Origin: Syntrophaceae bacterium
GTDB taxonomy: Bacteria > Desulfobacterota > Syntrophia > Syntrophales > PHBD01
NCBI GenBank assembly: GCA_013177825.1
Contig: JABLXX010000007.1
Coordinates: forward strand, 62,001 to 126,000
Direction of reading: 5' to 3'
Length of the DNA: 64,000 bases
The translations under genes were made by a program, and so were the position numbers. The notes under the pieces are model-generated. The model made no database searches and was not told the origin of the DNA. It was given only the letters and a program-made list of their open reading frames with translations. Within the stretch, counting starts at the first letter, position 1, and the number at the start of each line of letters is the position of its first letter. This document shows positions 3,884-19,679 of the stretch, in pieces.

Positions 3884-5374
3884 ATGAGTTCGTTTCTGGA
3901 GTTTCAAGGCATCACCAAGACTTTTCCCGGAGTCAAGGCCCTCGACAACGTCTCGTTCGGTGTAGCGAAAGGAACGGTGCACGGTCTGGTCGGAGAGAAC
4001 GGCGCCGGCAAATCCACGCTGCTGAAGATATTGAGCGGTGCATACACTCCCACGGAAGGGAAAATCGTCATCCATCAGGAACCGAAGGTTTTCACCAGAA
4101 CCCGCGATGCAATCGATGCCGGGGTCGCCATCATCTACCAGGAGCTGAACCTGGTCCCGGAGATGACGGTGGCGGAAAACCTGCTTCTCGGGAAATGGCC
4201 GCAGCGCGGTTTCTTCCTGGACAGGAAAAAACTGCTGGAGCGGTCCCGGACCCAGATCGCGGAACTTCTGGAGGACATCGATCCGGACACCAGGCTGAAG
4301 CATCTGCCCATCGGGCAGAGACAGATGATCGAGATCAGCAAGGCCCTCCTCCATAACGCCGAGGTCATCGCGTTCGACGAGCCGACCAGCTCCCTCTCCA
4401 GGAAGGAAACGGAACAGCTTTTCCGCATCATCCGGAATCTCCGCGCACGGGGGAAAACCATTCTCTACGTGTCGCACCGGCTCGAAGAGATTTTCACGCT
4501 CTGTGATGCCGTCACCGTCTTCCGGGACGGCCGGAGGATCCAGACCTTCGAGTCGATGGACGGCGTGACGGACAATACCCTGATCCAGCGCATGGTCGGT
4601 CGTGAAATGAAGGATATGTACGGTTACCGTCCCCGGGAAAAAGGCTCCACGCTGTTTGAGGTATCCGGCCTTCAAGGCCCCGGAATCAAGCAAAAGTCTT
4701 CCTTTTCCGCGGCGCGGGGCGAAATTGTCGGGTTCTTCGGCCTCAGCGGTTCGGGCCGGACGGAGCTGATGAAGAACATCTTCGGCGCCATCGAGAAGCG
4801 ATGCGGCAATATTCGCGTCGACGGCAAACCCATCGCCGTCCACAATCCCTTTTCCGCCATCAATCAGGGTCTGTGCCTCTGCCCGGAAGACAGGAAATAC
4901 GAGGGAATCATCGCCGTCCGGTCCCTGAGCGAGAACATCAACATCAGTTCCCGGCGGCATTTCCTGAAACTCGGCCTTTTCCTGAACAAGCGGCGCGAGC
5001 GGGAACGGGCGGACAGCTACATCGAAAAGCTTCACATCCGAACCCCGTCAAGAGACCAGTTCATCGGCAACCTGTCGGGCGGAAACCAGCAGAAAGCCAT
5101 CCTGGCGCGGTGGCTCAGCGAAAAAGTCGACGTCTTCCTGCTGGACGAGCCGACCCGCGGCATCGACGTCGGATCGAAGTACGAGATTTACCAGATCATG
5201 TACGGACTGGCGGAAGAAGGGAAAACGGTCATTTTTGCGTCCAGCAGTCTGCCGGAAGTGATGGGCGTCGCCGACCGGGTCGTGGTCATGTGCGGCGGCA
5301 CCATCATCGGTGAGGTGGACCGGAGAGACGTCAGCGAGGAAACCCTTCTTTCGATGGCATTACCCAAAGGATAA
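3884..5374 (+). CDS. sugar ABC transporter ATPase, AraG-like (two ABC domains)
   Basis: This is the ATP-hydrolysing subunit of the monosaccharide importer, 496 residues with two ABC domains as in AraG, MglA and RbsA. Domain 1 has Walker A GENGAGKST (residues 37-45), the signature-like LPIGQRQ and Walker B VIAFDEPTS. Domain 2 has a degenerate Walker A GLSGSGRTE, which is normal for the second half of this family, then signature NLSGGNQQK and Walker B VFLLDEPTRGID. It lies 88 bp after the binding-protein gene and 17 bp before the permease gene. Confidence 0.94.
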   Translation: MSSFLEFQGITKTFPGVKALDNVSFGVAKGTVHGLVGENGAGKSTLLKILSGAYTPTEGKIVIHQEPKVFTRTRDAIDAGVAIIYQELNLVPEMTVAENLLLGKWPQRGFFLDRKKLLERSRTQIAELLEDIDPDTRLKHLPIGQRQMIEISKALLHNAEVIAFDEPTSSLSRKETEQLFRIIRNLRARGKTILYVSHRLEEIFTLCDAVTVFRDGRRIQTFESMDGVTDNTLIQRMVGREMKDMYGYRPREKGSTLFEVSGLQGPGIKQKSSFSAARGEIVGFFGLSGSGRTELMKNIFGAIEKRCGNIRVDGKPIAVHNPFSAINQGLCLCPEDRKYEGIIAVRSLSENINISSRRHFLKLGLFLNKRRERERADSYIEKLHIRTPSRDQFIGNLSGGNQQKAILARWLSEKVDVFLLDEPTRGIDVGSKYEIYQIMYGLAEEGKTVIFASSSLPEVMGVADRVVVMCGGTIIGEVDRRDVSEETLLSMALPKG

Positions 5375-14953: not shown

Positions 14954-16762
14954 ATGGACGACCAGGACACCAAAGGCGGGACCGGCGCACCTCCCTTCGA
15001 GCAGGAGTCCCTGTTCCGCTTCCTGACGGAACAGATGACCGACGTCATCTGGACGGTCGATCTCAACCTGCAGACCACCTACGTCAGCCCCTCGGTACTG
15101 AAGGTCCACGGATACACACCGGAAGAACGAATCCGTCAGAAAGCCGGGGATCAGGTGACCCCCGAGTCGTACGCCCGGGCCGTGGAACTTATGGCCGCCG
15201 AGATCGAGCGGGAACAGAGGGGCGACGCCGACCGCAACCGCACCATGGCGGTGGAGATGGAGTACATCAATAAGGACGGCTCCACCGTGTGGATGGAAAA
15301 CCTGGTCAGCGGCATCCGGGATACCGAGGGAAAGCCCGTCGGACTGCACGGCGTATCAAGAGACATCACGGAACGGAAGCGCATGGAAAGGCTCCTTCAG
15401 GAACAGGAGCGGAAATACCGGCTCCTGACAGAAAATTCCACCGATGTCATCTGGACCATGGACCTGAACGGTCGTTTTACCTACATCAGCCCGTCGATCC
15501 GGGAGCTGGCCGGATTCACGCCGGAGGAGGCCATGGCGATCCCCTTCGGCAAATACGTCTTCCCGGAAGATTACGATGCCGTCATGGCACAAATTGCGGC
15601 GGAGCTGGCCAAGCCGCCCTCCGAGCGGGCCCGGGTCCGGACCCTGGAGCTCCGGCAGTACGCAAAGGACGGCAGCATCATCGACATCGAGGTCAGTTCA
15701 TCCTGGCTCCTGGACGAGAATGGAGAGGTGATCGGACTCCAGGGAAACACCCGGGACATTCGGGAACGCAAGCACGTGGAAGCCTCTCTCCTGGAAAGCG
15801 AAACGCGCTTCCGGCTCCTGGTGGACAACGCCCCCGACGTCATTTTCGTATCGACGGAGCAGCGGTTCGCCTATCTGAACCGCGCCGCCGTAAAGCTCTT
15901 CGGCGCGGACACGGCGGGACAGCTCCTGGGGCGGCCCGTCATCGACCGGTTTCACCCGGACTACCATGAGAGCGTGAGGCGGCGGGTTCATCGGCTCTAT
16001 GTCGAACAGGAACCGGTGCCGCGGATCGAGGAGGTCTGCCTCCGGATGGACGGATCCTCCGTAACGGTGGAAATCTCCGCCGTTCCCATTGTGTTTCAGG
16101 GAAAACGGGGTGCCCTCGTCTTCGCCCGGGACATCACCGATCGCAAGCAGGCGGAGGAACAGATCCGGTCCAGCCTCGACAGGTTGAAGGCCGCCATCGG
16201 AGGCATCATCCAGGTGACGGTCAACGTCGTGGAAATGAGGGATCCCTATACGGCGGGCCACCAGCGACGTGTCGCGGAACTGGCCGAAGCCATCGCCGTC
16301 GAGATGAACCGGAGCCCCGACGAAATCAAGGCCATCCGCCTGGCCGGCGCCATCCACGACATCGGAAAAATTGGAATCCCCTCTGAAATCCTGAGCAAGC
16401 CCGGAAAGCTGTCGGAGGTCGAGTTTCAGCTCGTCAAAACCCATTCGCGTGTCGGGTCCGACATCCTCAAGGAAATCGAATTCCCCTGGGACCTGGCAGG
16501 CATGATCCTTCAGCATCACGAACGGATGGACGGATCCGGCTATCCTCTTGGCCTCAAGGGCGATGCAATTCTCATGGAAGCGCGAATCCTGGCCGTGGCC
16601 GACGTAGTCGAGGCCATCGCCATCCACCGCCCCTACCGTCCATCCATGGGAATCGAGTCCGCCTTGGAGGAAATCGTTGCCAACCGCGGTGTTTTCTACG
16701 ATTCCGAGGTCGTCGACGTCTGCCTCCGGCTTTTTCGTGAGAAAGGCTATCGACTGGAATAA
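14954..16762 (+). CDS. PAS-PAS-PAS-HD-GYP cyclic-di-GMP phosphodiesterase
   Basis: This is a cytoplasmic sensor-effector of 602 residues. Three PAS domains run in order (about 15-140, 145-275 and 280-400), two opening with a DVIWT(V/M)DL-type strand and each ending near DI(T/R)(E/D)RK. An HD-GYP domain (about 405-595) follows. The HD-GYP catalytic set is intact: TAGHQRR, HDIGK, the TH of VKTHSRVG, and HHERMDGSGYP. HD-GYP proteins hydrolyse c-di-GMP to pGpG or GMP. No transmembrane segment is seen, so the PAS domains probably sense an internal signal. It sits between hydF and TM1266-hydG-hydE with its own promoter. RBS AGGAG lies upstream of the ATG. Confidence 0.92.
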   Translation: MDDQDTKGGTGAPPFEQESLFRFLTEQMTDVIWTVDLNLQTTYVSPSVLKVHGYTPEERIRQKAGDQVTPESYARAVELMAAEIEREQRGDADRNRTMAVEMEYINKDGSTVWMENLVSGIRDTEGKPVGLHGVSRDITERKRMERLLQEQERKYRLLTENSTDVIWTMDLNGRFTYISPSIRELAGFTPEEAMAIPFGKYVFPEDYDAVMAQIAAELAKPPSERARVRTLELRQYAKDGSIIDIEVSSSWLLDENGEVIGLQGNTRDIRERKHVEASLLESETRFRLLVDNAPDVIFVSTEQRFAYLNRAAVKLFGADTAGQLLGRPVIDRFHPDYHESVRRRVHRLYVEQEPVPRIEEVCLRMDGSSVTVEISAVPIVFQGKRGALVFARDITDRKQAEEQIRSSLDRLKAAIGGIIQVTVNVVEMRDPYTAGHQRRVAELAEAIAVEMNRSPDEIKAIRLAGAIHDIGKIGIPSEILSKPGKLSEVEFQLVKTHSRVGSDILKEIEFPWDLAGMILQHHERMDGSGYPLGLKGDAILMEARILAVADVVEAIAIHRPYRPSMGIESALEEIVANRGVFYDSEVVDVCLRLFREKGYRLE

Positions 16763-16805: not shown

Positions 16806-16834
16806 TTGACATTCCCGATGATCTGTGATGAATA
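16806..16834 (+). promoter_or_regulatory. possible promoter for the TM1266-hydG-hydE leader
   Basis: A consensus -35 TTGACA (16806-16811) lies 44 bp after the HD-GYP stop. The -10 region at 16828-16834 (around TGAATA) is weak. If used, it would give a leader of about 130 nt that includes the terminator hairpin at 16915-16952. Confidence 0.35.
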
Positions 16835-16840
16835 GCGCGC

Positions 16841-16969
16841 GGCTGGTGAATCCGGCCGGTCCTGAGAGGAAGGACGCCGTCTGACCTCGAGGGGGAGCGC
16901 AACGAGCCATCGCGAGAGGTCTGCTCCCTTCAGGAGCGGACCTCTTTTTTTTGCAATGGAAGGAGCATG
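16841..16969 (+). ncRNA. structured leader / putative attenuator of TM1266-hydG-hydE
   Basis: The 5' leader contains two small hairpins (16841-16857, GGCTGG/CCGGCC with one GU; 16859-16875, GTCCT/AGGAC). Next comes GACCTC (16883-16888), which can pair with GAGGTC (16916-16921), and GGGAGC (16893-16898), which can pair with GCTCCC (16923-16928). Both alternatives would disrupt the terminator stem. The T-run ends only 7 bases before the RBS, so no promoter fits between it and the gene. The class is not one I recognise. Confidence 0.5.
16915..16952 (+). terminator. intrinsic terminator just before the TM1266 RBS
   Basis: A 13-bp stem, AGAGGTCTGCTCC (16915-16927) and GGAGCGGACCTCT (16933-16945) with one GU pair and a 5-nt loop, is followed by eight Ts. 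It may end the HD-GYP transcript, but its position makes it more likely a leader terminator of the next operon. Confidence 0.85.
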
Positions 16970-16970
16970 C

Positions 16971-17219
16971 ATGAACCGTCGCATCGGAACCATCACCATC
17001 ATCATCACGAACCGGGCCGACCAGGCCAACCGGATCAACGCCATCCTGAGCGAGCACGGCGAGGCCGTCATCGGCCGGATGGGGCTGCCCTACCCGCCCA
17101 AGGGCCTTCACATCATCTCGCTCATCGTTCACGCCACCACCGACGAGATCGGCTCCCTGACGGGAAAGCTGGGCGCCCTGGAGGGCGTGCAGGTGAAGTC
17201 GGCCCTGACCAAAGCATAG
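16971..17219 (+). CDS. TM1266-type iron-only hydrogenase system regulator
   Basis: This small ACT/NikR-like regulator of 82 residues belongs to the TM1266 family, regularly found beside hydE, hydF and hydG and annotated as a putative iron-only hydrogenase system regulator. The sequence follows the family end to end: RIGTITIIITNRADQANRIN, IGRMGLPYPPKGLHIISLIV, then TDEIGSLTGKLGALEGVQVK and SALTKA. It probably works as an oligomer sensing a small molecule; no DNA-binding domain is visible. The start is the ATG at 16971, 5 bases after AAGGAG; an upstream in-frame ATG at 16956 would place the RBS inside the gene. Confidence 0.9.
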   Translation: MNRRIGTITIIITNRADQANRINAILSEHGEAVIGRMGLPYPPKGLHIISLIVHATTDEIGSLTGKLGALEGVQVKSALTKA

Positions 17220-17233
17220 AAGGGAAAGACCAA

Positions 17234-18631
17234 ATGACCGCAGATTTCATCGACGACGGAAAGATCGAGCGACTGCTTGACGAATCGAAGAACCCGTCCC
17301 GTCGGCGGGTTGAGGAACTGATTGAAAAAGCGAAGAAGCTGCAAGGCTTGACGCCGGAGGAGACGGCCGTTCTCCTGCAGACGGAGGACCCGGAGCTCCT
17401 GGCCGAAATCGGTCGGACGGCCCGGCAGATCAAGCGGGACATCTACGGGAACCGCCTGGTTCTTTTCGCCCCCCTCTACATCGCGAACTTCTGCAGCAAC
17501 AACTGCCTCTACTGCGGATTCCGCAAGGACAACAAGGACCTCAAGCGCGTGGCCCTCTCCCTGGAGCAGATTGCAAGCGAAGTAAGCGTCCTGGAGCGGG
17601 AGGGGCACAAGCGGCTCCTGATGCTCTGCGGCGAGCACCCCGGCCGATCCAGCCTGGACTACTTCGTTGAGGCCATTGAAACGGCCTATTCCGTGAAGAC
17701 GGAGAAGGGCGGAGAGATCCGGCGAATCAATGTGGAGATCGCCCCGCTGGAAGTCGAGGAGTTCCGGCGGCTCAAGGCGGCGAAGATCGGGACCTACGTC
17801 CTGTTCCAGGAAACCTATCACCACGGGACGTACCGCCGGATGCACCCCAGCGGCCCCAAGAAAGACTACGTCCGGCGGCTGACGGCCATGCACCGGGCCC
17901 AGGAGGGCGGCATCGACGACGTGGGCATCGGAGCCCTCTTCGGCCTCTACGATTACAAGTTCGAGGTCCTCGGGCTCCTCTTCCACGCCCTGCAGCTCGA
18001 GCGGGACTGCGGCGTGGGCCCCCACACCATCTCGATTCCACGGCTGGAGCCGGCCCTCAACGCGCCGGCGGCTATCAAGCCGCCCCACCCGGTCTCCGAC
18101 GAGGAATTCAAGAAACTCGTGGCGGTGATCCGCATGGCCGTCCCCTACACGGGAATGATCCTCTCCACCCGCGAGACAGCAGCCCTCCGGAGCGAGGTTT
18201 TCGACCTGGGGATTTCCCAGATCAGCGCGGGATCCCGGACGAATCCGGGAGGCTACCGGGAGGATTCCAGCGAGGGGTTCCGGGCGGCCCAATTCAACCT
18301 GGGGGACACGCGGACCCTCGACGAGGTGATCCTCGACATCAGCACCCACGGGCACATTCCCAGCTTCTGCACCGCCTGCTACCGGCTGGGCCGGACGGGG
18401 GCGGATTTCATGGACCTGGCAAAACCGGGGCTGATCCAGAAGTTCTGCCGAACCAATGCCATCCTCACCTACAAGGAATACCTGCAGGACTACGCATCTC
18501 CGGAGACCAAGGCCGTGGGCGACGCCCTGATCGACCGTCTCCTGGCGGAGACGAAAAGCAGCCGCCAGCGTGAAAATCTGGAGAAACGCCTGCGGAAGAT
18601 CGAGGAAGGGCAGCGGGATCTCTATGTCTGA
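17234..18631 (+). CDS. hydG: [FeFe]-hydrogenase maturation tyrosine lyase HydG
   Basis: HydG is a radical-SAM tyrosine lyase that makes the CO and CN ligands and the Fe(CO)2(CN) synthon of the H-cluster. The 465-residue protein has the radical-SAM motif C87-SNN-C91-LY-C94. It also has the C-terminal auxiliary-cluster motif C379-TA-C382-x22-C405, which separates HydG from ThiH. YHHGTYRRMHPSGPKKDY and the GALFGL region match the family. It starts 14 bp after the TM1266 gene, and its stop overlaps the hydE start. Confidence 0.96.
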   Translation: MTADFIDDGKIERLLDESKNPSRRRVEELIEKAKKLQGLTPEETAVLLQTEDPELLAEIGRTARQIKRDIYGNRLVLFAPLYIANFCSNNCLYCGFRKDNKDLKRVALSLEQIASEVSVLEREGHKRLLMLCGEHPGRSSLDYFVEAIETAYSVKTEKGGEIRRINVEIAPLEVEEFRRLKAAKIGTYVLFQETYHHGTYRRMHPSGPKKDYVRRLTAMHRAQEGGIDDVGIGALFGLYDYKFEVLGLLFHALQLERDCGVGPHTISIPRLEPALNAPAAIKPPHPVSDEEFKKLVAVIRMAVPYTGMILSTRETAALRSEVFDLGISQISAGSRTNPGGYREDSSEGFRAAQFNLGDTRTLDEVILDISTHGHIPSFCTACYRLGRTGADFMDLAKPGLIQKFCRTNAILTYKEYLQDYASPETKAVGDALIDRLLAETKSSRQRENLEKRLRKIEEGQRDLYV

Positions 18632-19679
18632 ATCGCCGGACCGGATCGCCGGGCTGATCGGGACGGCCCGCCGGGGGGAGTCTCTCTCCCGGGAAGACCT
18701 GACCCTCCTTCTGAACCTGGCGGACGAGGAGTCCCTGGAGGCGCTCGGCACGGCGGCCGACGCCGTCCGCCGGGAAGCCGTCGGGGATGCCGTCTATCTT
18801 CGCGGCATCGTAGAGTTCTCCAATTTCTGCCGGCAGAATTGCCTCTACTGCGGCCTCCGCCGGGACAACCGGGACATCATTCGCTATCGGATGGACGAGG
18901 ACGCCGTCCTCGCCGCCGTCCGCCGGATCCGGGACAGGGACATCGGCACGGTTGTCCTTCAGTCCGGCGAGGATCCCGCATACACCCGTGGCGACCTGTG
19001 CCGCATCGTCGGCCGGATCAGGAACGAGACGGGCCTGATCGTGACGCTCTCGGTGGGAGAGCGGCCCCTGGAAGACTACCGGGCCTTCCGCGAGGCCGGA
19101 GCGGACCGGTATCTCCTCAAGCACGAGACGGCCTCTCCGGACCTCTACCGGCGGCTCCGGCCCGGATGCATGCTGGAGGACCGCCTCCGCTGCCTGAAGG
19201 ACCTCCGGGACCTGGGCTACGAGGTCGGAACGGGGAACATGGTGGGCCTCCCGGGACAGACGCCGGAAATCCTGGCGGACGACCTGCTCCTGATCCGCTC
19301 CCTCGATGCGGACATGCTGGGGATCGGCCCCTTCATCCCCCACCCGGGAACGCCCCTCGCCGGCGCGCCGGGAGGCGACCTGAAAAGGACGCTCCGGGTC
19401 CTGGCCCTGGCCCGCCTCCTGACCCGGGACACGAATATCCCCGCCACGACGGCCCTGGGGACTCTGCATCCGGAAGGCCGGATCCGGGCCCTCCGGGCGG
19501 GAGCCAACATCGTCATGCCCGATTTCACCCCCGAAACCCTCCGTGCCCGGTATGACATCTATCCCGGCAAGTCCACCGTGCCGGACGGGGACATCCTCAT
19601 GGCGCGCCTGCGGGAAGACCTGGTCCTGCTGGAGCGTCACACGGGCAAGGGGCCGGGCGGACGCGTCGTCCCGCGTTGA
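18624..19679 (+). CDS. hydE: [FeFe]-hydrogenase maturation radical SAM protein HydE
   Basis: HydE is a radical-SAM enzyme that processes the HydG product on the way to the diiron subcluster. It has 351 residues. The SAM-cluster motif is C69-RQN-C73-LY-C76, followed by GLRRDNR. LQSGED, KHETASPDLYRRLRPG and GNMVGLPGQT are typical of the family. The second, non-essential cluster seen near the C-terminus of some HydE proteins has no Cys candidates here. The ATG at 18624 overlaps the hydG stop by 8 bases, indicating coupled translation. Confidence 0.95.
   Translation: MSESPDRIAGLIGTARRGESLSREDLTLLLNLADEESLEALGTAADAVRREAVGDAVYLRGIVEFSNFCRQNCLYCGLRRDNRDIIRYRMDEDAVLAAVRRIRDRDIGTVVLQSGEDPAYTRGDLCRIVGRIRNETGLIVTLSVGERPLEDYRAFREAGADRYLLKHETASPDLYRRLRPGCMLEDRLRCLKDLRDLGYEVGTGNMVGLPGQTPEILADDLLLIRSLDADMLGIGPFIPHPGTPLAGAPGGDLKRTLRVLALARLLTRDTNIPATTALGTLHPEGRIRALRAGANIVMPDFTPETLRARYDIYPGKSTVPDGDILMARLREDLVLLERHTGKGPGGRVVPR

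Follow-up and report, generated by a model that had tools for sequence, protein, structure and literature searches.

A probable attenuating leader RNA upstream of the TM1266-hydG-hydE operon in a Syntrophaceae bacterium and other Desulfobacterota

The window (the whole stretch of 64,000 nucleotides that was analysed) carries [FeFe]-hydrogenase maturation genes in the order aspA - hydF - PAS/HD-GYP gene - 208-nt gap - TM1266 - hydG - hydE. A terminator stands in the gap. The original prediction was an attenuator or riboswitch leader on this operon. The leader is read here as a transcription attenuator belonging to a new family of cis-regulatory RNAs that would serve [FeFe]-hydrogenase maturation operons specifically, with a probability of about 0.85 that covers the attenuator family as such and excludes the effector. 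The evidence is computational and comprises a hairpin with covariation, competing helices, the gene context and absence from Rfam. The putatively controlled genes are:

16958..16965, + strand: Shine-Dalgarno-like GGAAGGAG, read from the sequence
16971..17219, + strand: TM1266-family gene, first in the operon (TIGR03959, 107 bits, cut-off 61)
17234..18631, + strand: hydG (TIGR03955, 551 bits)
18618..19679, + strand: hydE (TIGR03956, 336 bits)

The TM1266 gene starts with the ATG at 16971 and encodes a protein of 82 residues, the nearest solved structure being 2nzc. TM1266 is annotated only as a "putative regulator" of [FeFe]-hydrogenase systems, and the literature searched contained neither a tested function for it nor RNA-level control of [FeFe]-hydrogenase maturation. 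The PAS/HD-GYP gene (c-di-GMP phosphodiesterase-like, window positions 14954-16762) lies between hydF and the leader, and its 3' end is about 45 nt upstream of the leader promoter. Two elements frame the leader:

16806..16833, + strand: candidate promoter, located purely by consensus match; similar layout in most Syntrophales relatives
16914..16952, + strand: intrinsic terminator predicted by folding, with a 14-bp stem (16914-16946), a 5-nt loop and eight U (16945-16952)

The terminator ends 18 nt before the TM1266 start codon and folds by itself at -25.3 kcal/mol, whereas shuffles give -10.7 +/- 2.7 (z -5.5) and none of 200 equalled it; this agrees with the strong terminator originally described before this gene. 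The candidate promoter comprises a perfect TTGACA -35 (16806-16811) and a weak -10, ATGAAT (16828-16833), with a predicted transcription start near 16840; in a generic promoter scan 16806-16833 stayed below the threshold. Most Syntrophales relatives have TTGACA with a 16-18 nt spacer upstream of the conserved element described below, and in many of them TTGACA-18-TAnnnT lies about 19-20 nt upstream of the conserved core, so that the core is predicted to start about 12 nt into the transcript; in the window the corresponding distance is about 20 nt. Given the promoter-like TTGACA at 16806, the leader is probably a separate transcript. The original prediction held that no promoter fits and that the operon must be read from upstream, but with this TTGACA and the weak -10, read-through from the preceding operon is not required. 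As in an attenuator, an intrinsic terminator is placed between the candidate promoter, a consensus match, and the first gene.

The conserved core of the leader is a small hairpin upstream of the terminator:

16861..16893, + strand: sensor (aptamer-like) hairpin of 33 nt, with covariation, with P2, P3 and a P1-like stem in the single-sequence fold, and matched by covariance model R2

In the window the sensor is formed by P1 (16861-16863/16891-16893, CCU/GGG), a GA/GA loop, P2 (GAGG 16866-16869/CCUC 16885-16888), an AA/GA loop and P3 (GGAC 16872-16875/GUCU 16879-16882), and an unconstrained fold of the window leader gave much the same hairpin. The element is present in about 40 leaders. The general plan opens with CCU/GGG, which a purine internal loop, G[A/C]/RA, separates from a 4-bp helix with covariation; a second purine loop and a variable tip follow, and the consensus in leaders of TM1266 homologues is CCUGAGAGRRAGG - 5 to 13 nt - CUGAYCUYRAGGG, upstream of a terminator. 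From 25 leaders RNAalifold derived a hairpin in which purine loops separate P1 (CCU/GGG) from P2 (GAGR/YCUY) and P2 from the apical stem, whose closing pair is an invariant G-C.

Among 42 sensors, the P2 pair 8:36 was seen as G-U, G-C, A-U and C-G, the P2 pair 11:33 as G-C, G-U and A-U, and the P1 pair 3:41 as CG, UA and UG. Paired cells reached 98.4% in this set, compared with 96.1% in shuffles and at most 76% with the partner strand slid. Two-sided changes were identified at three pairs, and the covariation score was reached by 0 of 500 shuffles. P1 and the G-U/G-C pairs of P3 show hardly any variation and are therefore backed by conservation, not by covariation. The sensor shows the conserved, covarying structure expected of a riboswitch aptamer. 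The alignment of TM1266 leaders from relatives, proposed along with the original prediction, thus yielded a conserved element with covariation, although in another place than foreseen: two small hairpins at 16841-16875 had been taken as part of an aptamer, whereas the sensor is found at 16861-16893 and the hairpin at 16841-16857 falls outside the conserved core.

Ribosome-mediated attenuation through a leader peptide was considered, as a GTG frame of 12 codons can be read in the window, with the UGA of the conserved CUGA as its stop. The apical loop, however, is 5 to 13 nt long in different leaders, with lengths in all three classes modulo 3, so the sensor keeps no common reading frame, and the leaders inspected have neither a conserved start codon nor a Shine-Dalgarno site ahead of it. 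This explanation is highly improbable and was excluded by the loop-length variation.

The sensor is connected to the terminator by a third helix, the antiterminator:

16891..16898, + strand: antiterminator 5' strand GGGGGAGC, overlapping the P1 3' strand and starting at the P1 GGG in nearly all relatives
16923..16928, + strand: antiterminator 3' strand GCUCCC, also within the terminator 5' arm, from duplex and folding analysis

The pairing of GGGAGC (16893-16898) with GCUCCC (16923-16928) is the conserved antiterminator, and in nearly every leader the best antiterminator runs from the P1 GGG into the terminator 5' arm. Since the GGG is common to P1 and the antiterminator, and the arm to the antiterminator and the terminator, the helices are mutually exclusive. 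Taken over 12 families together, the stretch from the GGG up to the terminator loop exceeds dinucleotide shuffles in stability (Fisher P ~1e-7, the families not being fully independent as related Syntrophales families share the terminator by descent); a mutually exclusive antiterminator, as expected of an attenuator, is therefore kept in relatives. The clearest antiterminators with unrelated terminators are those of G353 (GGGCUCUAAGGA/UCCUUAGAGCCC, z -6.7), G259 (GGGCUGGA/UCCAGCCC), G226 (GGGUUGU/ACAACCC) and G554 (GGGUAA/UUACCC). In the window the antiterminator segment alone is no more stable than shuffles (z -0.3 to -0.4), and a run of five G allows P1 and most of the antiterminator to form together, so the competition is softer than in relatives. 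The support is consequently comparative and belongs to the family, not to this sequence. In Syntrophus (L009, L011, L013, L020) the antiterminator loop is enlarged by an additional structured segment about 80 nt long.

Two alternative helices had been proposed originally, and the one from 16893-16898 is the conserved antiterminator. The other, GACCUC at 16883-16888 with GAGGUC at 16915-16920, pairs in the window (-10.9 kcal/mol) but is not generally conserved: it occurs in Syntrophales and in some members of family f52, whereas f58, f85, f53 and other parts of f52 have it weakly or not at all. It was rejected as a part of the switch; the bases 16883-16888 belong to the P2 region of the sensor.

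In the proposed mechanism, the sensor hairpin at the transcript start would compete, via its closing GGG, with the antiterminator, for which the 5' arm of the intrinsic terminator supplies the second strand. When stabilised by what it senses, the hairpin would block the antiterminator, the terminator would fold and the operon would be off; when not stabilised, the antiterminator would win and TM1266-hydG-hydE would be transcribed. That anything binds, and that binding means off, is what we infer. The same strong terminator could simply end the upstream gene or a short transcript, with constitutive read-through and no regulation, and similar terminators devoid of a sensor are found between hydA and aspA in Smithella-like genomes. 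Such a plain terminator is very unlikely: the upstream hairpin covaries and is better preserved from family to family than the terminator, which is the fastest-changing part; the competing antiterminator is kept while terminator sequences change; and in family f19 the element precedes aspA, not TM1266.

The distribution of the element was obtained with R2, a covariance model built from the 39-position sensor only, the position before TM1266 not being used in the search. The set comprised 395 genomes sampled across Desulfobacterota and 42 from the class of G436 (~430 in total). In the window genome the sole match was the TM1266 leader (41.5 bits). Outside the model's own leaders there were 15 matches at E <= 0.05, six of them directly upstream of TM1266-hydG: G325 (f40), G398 (f53) and G554, G555, G558 and G559 (f52). 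The probability of this by chance is roughly estimated at ~1e-24, and each of the three families has an unrelated terminator. The remaining nine lie in coding sequence or unrelated places. These blind matches before the same genes in other families, together with the covariation and the conserved antiterminator, uphold the attenuator or riboswitch leader first proposed for this operon.

The element was identified before TM1266-hydG in families f1, f4, f10, f11, f12, f13, f40, f52 and f53, followed by hydE where the contig was read that far. In f19 it heads the whole aspA-hydF-TM1266-hydG operon (the contig piece of G123 reaches only the start of aspA), and in f58 and f85 a near variant, CCUGCGGGGAGG..CCUGAACCUYAGGG, again precedes TM1266. 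Among the named loci, L037 from Syntrophus sp. PtaU1.Bin005 and L038 from Smithella sp. SCADC represent the best-known organisms. No R2 match was obtained in two genomes reached via Firmicutes-type TM1266 loci.

Several other matches were discarded. R1 matches upstream of aspA in Smithella-like genomes (E 1e-4 to 0.1), which looked like second elements, proved to be only the terminator after hydA, with no sensor; this hydA-aspA intergenic terminator (L101, L104, L106, L102) resembles the one of the TM1266 leader, AAAGAGGUUUGU..ACAAACCUCUUU. R1 and R2 matches at E 0.001-0.1 in coding or unrelated places (G508, G434, G462 and others) were taken as chance, as was the one at G072:2747196 (same E range), which adjoins a repeat array. 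The match in G421 is away from hydG and its sensor is incomplete.

The sensor co-occurs with TM1266. Of the 395 sampled genomes, 83 have HydG and 26 have TM1266, with 22 having both; an R2 sensor was present in 8 of those 22 and in 0 of the 61 that have HydG without TM1266 (Fisher P 8e-6, ancestry ignored), and a local sensitive search of HydG loci lacking TM1266 found no sensor. Within one genus, G353 has the leader and TM1266 and G395 has neither, hydG coming directly after hydA; G489 (f52) has hyd genes with neither TM1266 nor sensor. Two genomes without TM1266 have degenerate sensors, and the argument from sensor decay stands on these two: G024, with a sensor before hydG whose P2 is damaged, and G143, where the sensor lies before aspA-hydF-hydG-hydE. 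Intact sensors were found only where TM1266 is encoded with one exception, G221, whose hyd locus is decayed. In G221 and G034 (L109 ~4000-4320; L105 760-1300) only a C-terminal hydF remnant follows the leader or terminator, apparently a scar of a lost hyd operon. The co-occurrence fits TM1266 as a partner that would read the RNA and also a leader that simply moves with the first gene; such joint movement and common ancestry both confound the link.

In f58 the sensor variant and TM1266 are kept in genomes without HydG, so a HydG product is unlikely to be the signal or ligand. Two complete f58 genomes lacking HydG (L197 = G259:C37:55000-65000; L198 = G226:C21:4500-13800) have [FeFe]-hydrogenase, TM1266, aspA, hydF and hydE. 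Further along their operon, one NifH-like protein and two NifE/D-like ones are encoded, and G226 also has HypE- and HypC-like genes (named from sequence only) between TM1266 and aspA. A source of CO/CN ligands independent of HydG is suggested by these loci.

Concerning the effector, there is about an even chance that it is the TM1266 protein itself, in autogenous feedback, acting either unaided or together with a small ligand bound in its ACT/NikR-like fold. More specifically, and more tentatively, TM1266 may be an RNA-binding attenuation protein which would read the maturation status of the H-cluster, close the hairpin and shut its own maturation operon. The hairpin could instead bind a small molecule directly, TM1266 being merely the first regulated gene; candidates would be, for example, an H-cluster assembly precursor or by-product, tyrosine, iron or a redox cofactor. 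This possibility, a rival to TM1266 as effector and not to the attenuator, is a serious one somewhat short of even odds: the sensor is compact, with nearly invariant loop nucleotides around a covarying stem, its place at the transcript 5' end coupled to a terminator is the usual riboswitch plan, and in f19 the element would control the entire maturation set including aspA-hydF. A metabolite is disfavoured by the sensor occurring only with TM1266 and being lost or decayed where TM1266 is gone though hydG stays, and the f58 variant makes a HydG product an unlikely ligand. On balance the two come out nearly level, feedback by TM1266 being slightly favoured over a metabolite riboswitch.

PyrR-responsive pyr leaders have a purine-loop hairpin before an antiterminator/terminator pair, with the regulator gene first in the operon. 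Under the TM1266 model the hyd leader would have the same plan as these binding-loop attenuators, although sequence and structure differ, TM1266 is unrelated to PyrR and its RNA binding is hypothetical here. A dedicated leader RNA in at least nine families of Desulfobacterota, sulfate reducers and syntrophs among them, would show how H-cluster assembly is matched to need and points to an undescribed control of hydrogen metabolism. A single short RNA and a single small protein suffice for a direct test of what TM1266 does, and a metabolite riboswitch would reveal the compound by which the cell gauges H-cluster assembly.

The original prediction recognised no known class, and the Rfam search proposed with it agrees: no Rfam 15 family was found above the gathering cut-off in the window, and at relaxed E-values the window leader (E <= 10) and the 15 sources holding relatives (E <= 1) gave no match, whether to TPP (RF00059) or another riboswitch or to PyrR. 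HydG is a paralogue of ThiH, which belongs to the pathway of the HMP-PP (thiS motif) riboswitch, and the Syntrophales versions of the sensor share the words CUGAGA, CUGAUC and AGGGAAG with the TPP consensus. In TPP aptamers these words stand in helices other than those formed here, and the leader is a simple hairpin, not a multi-branched structure. The thiS motif likewise couples a very small sensor to an intrinsic terminator, but it is an ON switch whose aptamer forms part of the terminator hairpin itself, and it stands before HET-P genes (PMC6478431); here the conserved hairpin is upstream, the terminator changes fastest of all parts, the switch is probably OFF and the leader has no sequence match to the motif. 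Kinship with TPP or HMP-PP was rejected on its lack of covariance-model support and its different architecture, and membership of such a known class is very improbable. The nifV and gcsH motif riboswitch candidates (PMC11109978, where hydrogenase is not mentioned) are also rare leaders, from Geobacter or Desulfobacteraceae, on metallocofactor or one-carbon genes; the genes and structures are others. In literature text searches, no paper was found that describes a riboswitch, an attenuator or any leader RNA of hydG, hydE or TM1266, a large 2017 survey of riboswitch candidates (doi 10.1093/nar/gkx699) lying outside their scope, and there may be an earlier sighting of the family outside Rfam. The leader would thus be a new family of attenuating RNA, the attenuator mechanism itself being already known.

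Other arrangements were observed upstream of TM1266. Families f100 and f36 (L138, L141, L143, L145, L148, L154; ~1300-1490) share a different conserved leader, CUGACGYC-GAG-loop-CGA-GRCGGAAG with a terminator behind it, which was not detected by R2 and may represent an alternative version of the sensor. The TM1266 operon of G398 has a group II intron upstream of it (L155 2317-2856, minus strand). In f21 (G146; L151 ~1450-1490) the sensor-like repeats CCUGAGAUCAAGGG and CCUGAGAUUGAGGG directly precede the TM1266 start, with no terminator. In f74 (L156, L157) the sensor-like UCUGAUCUAGAGGAGAAG overlaps the Shine-Dalgarno site just upstream of TM1266, where AUA seems to be the only codon at a suitable distance for the start; could this element serve translational control?
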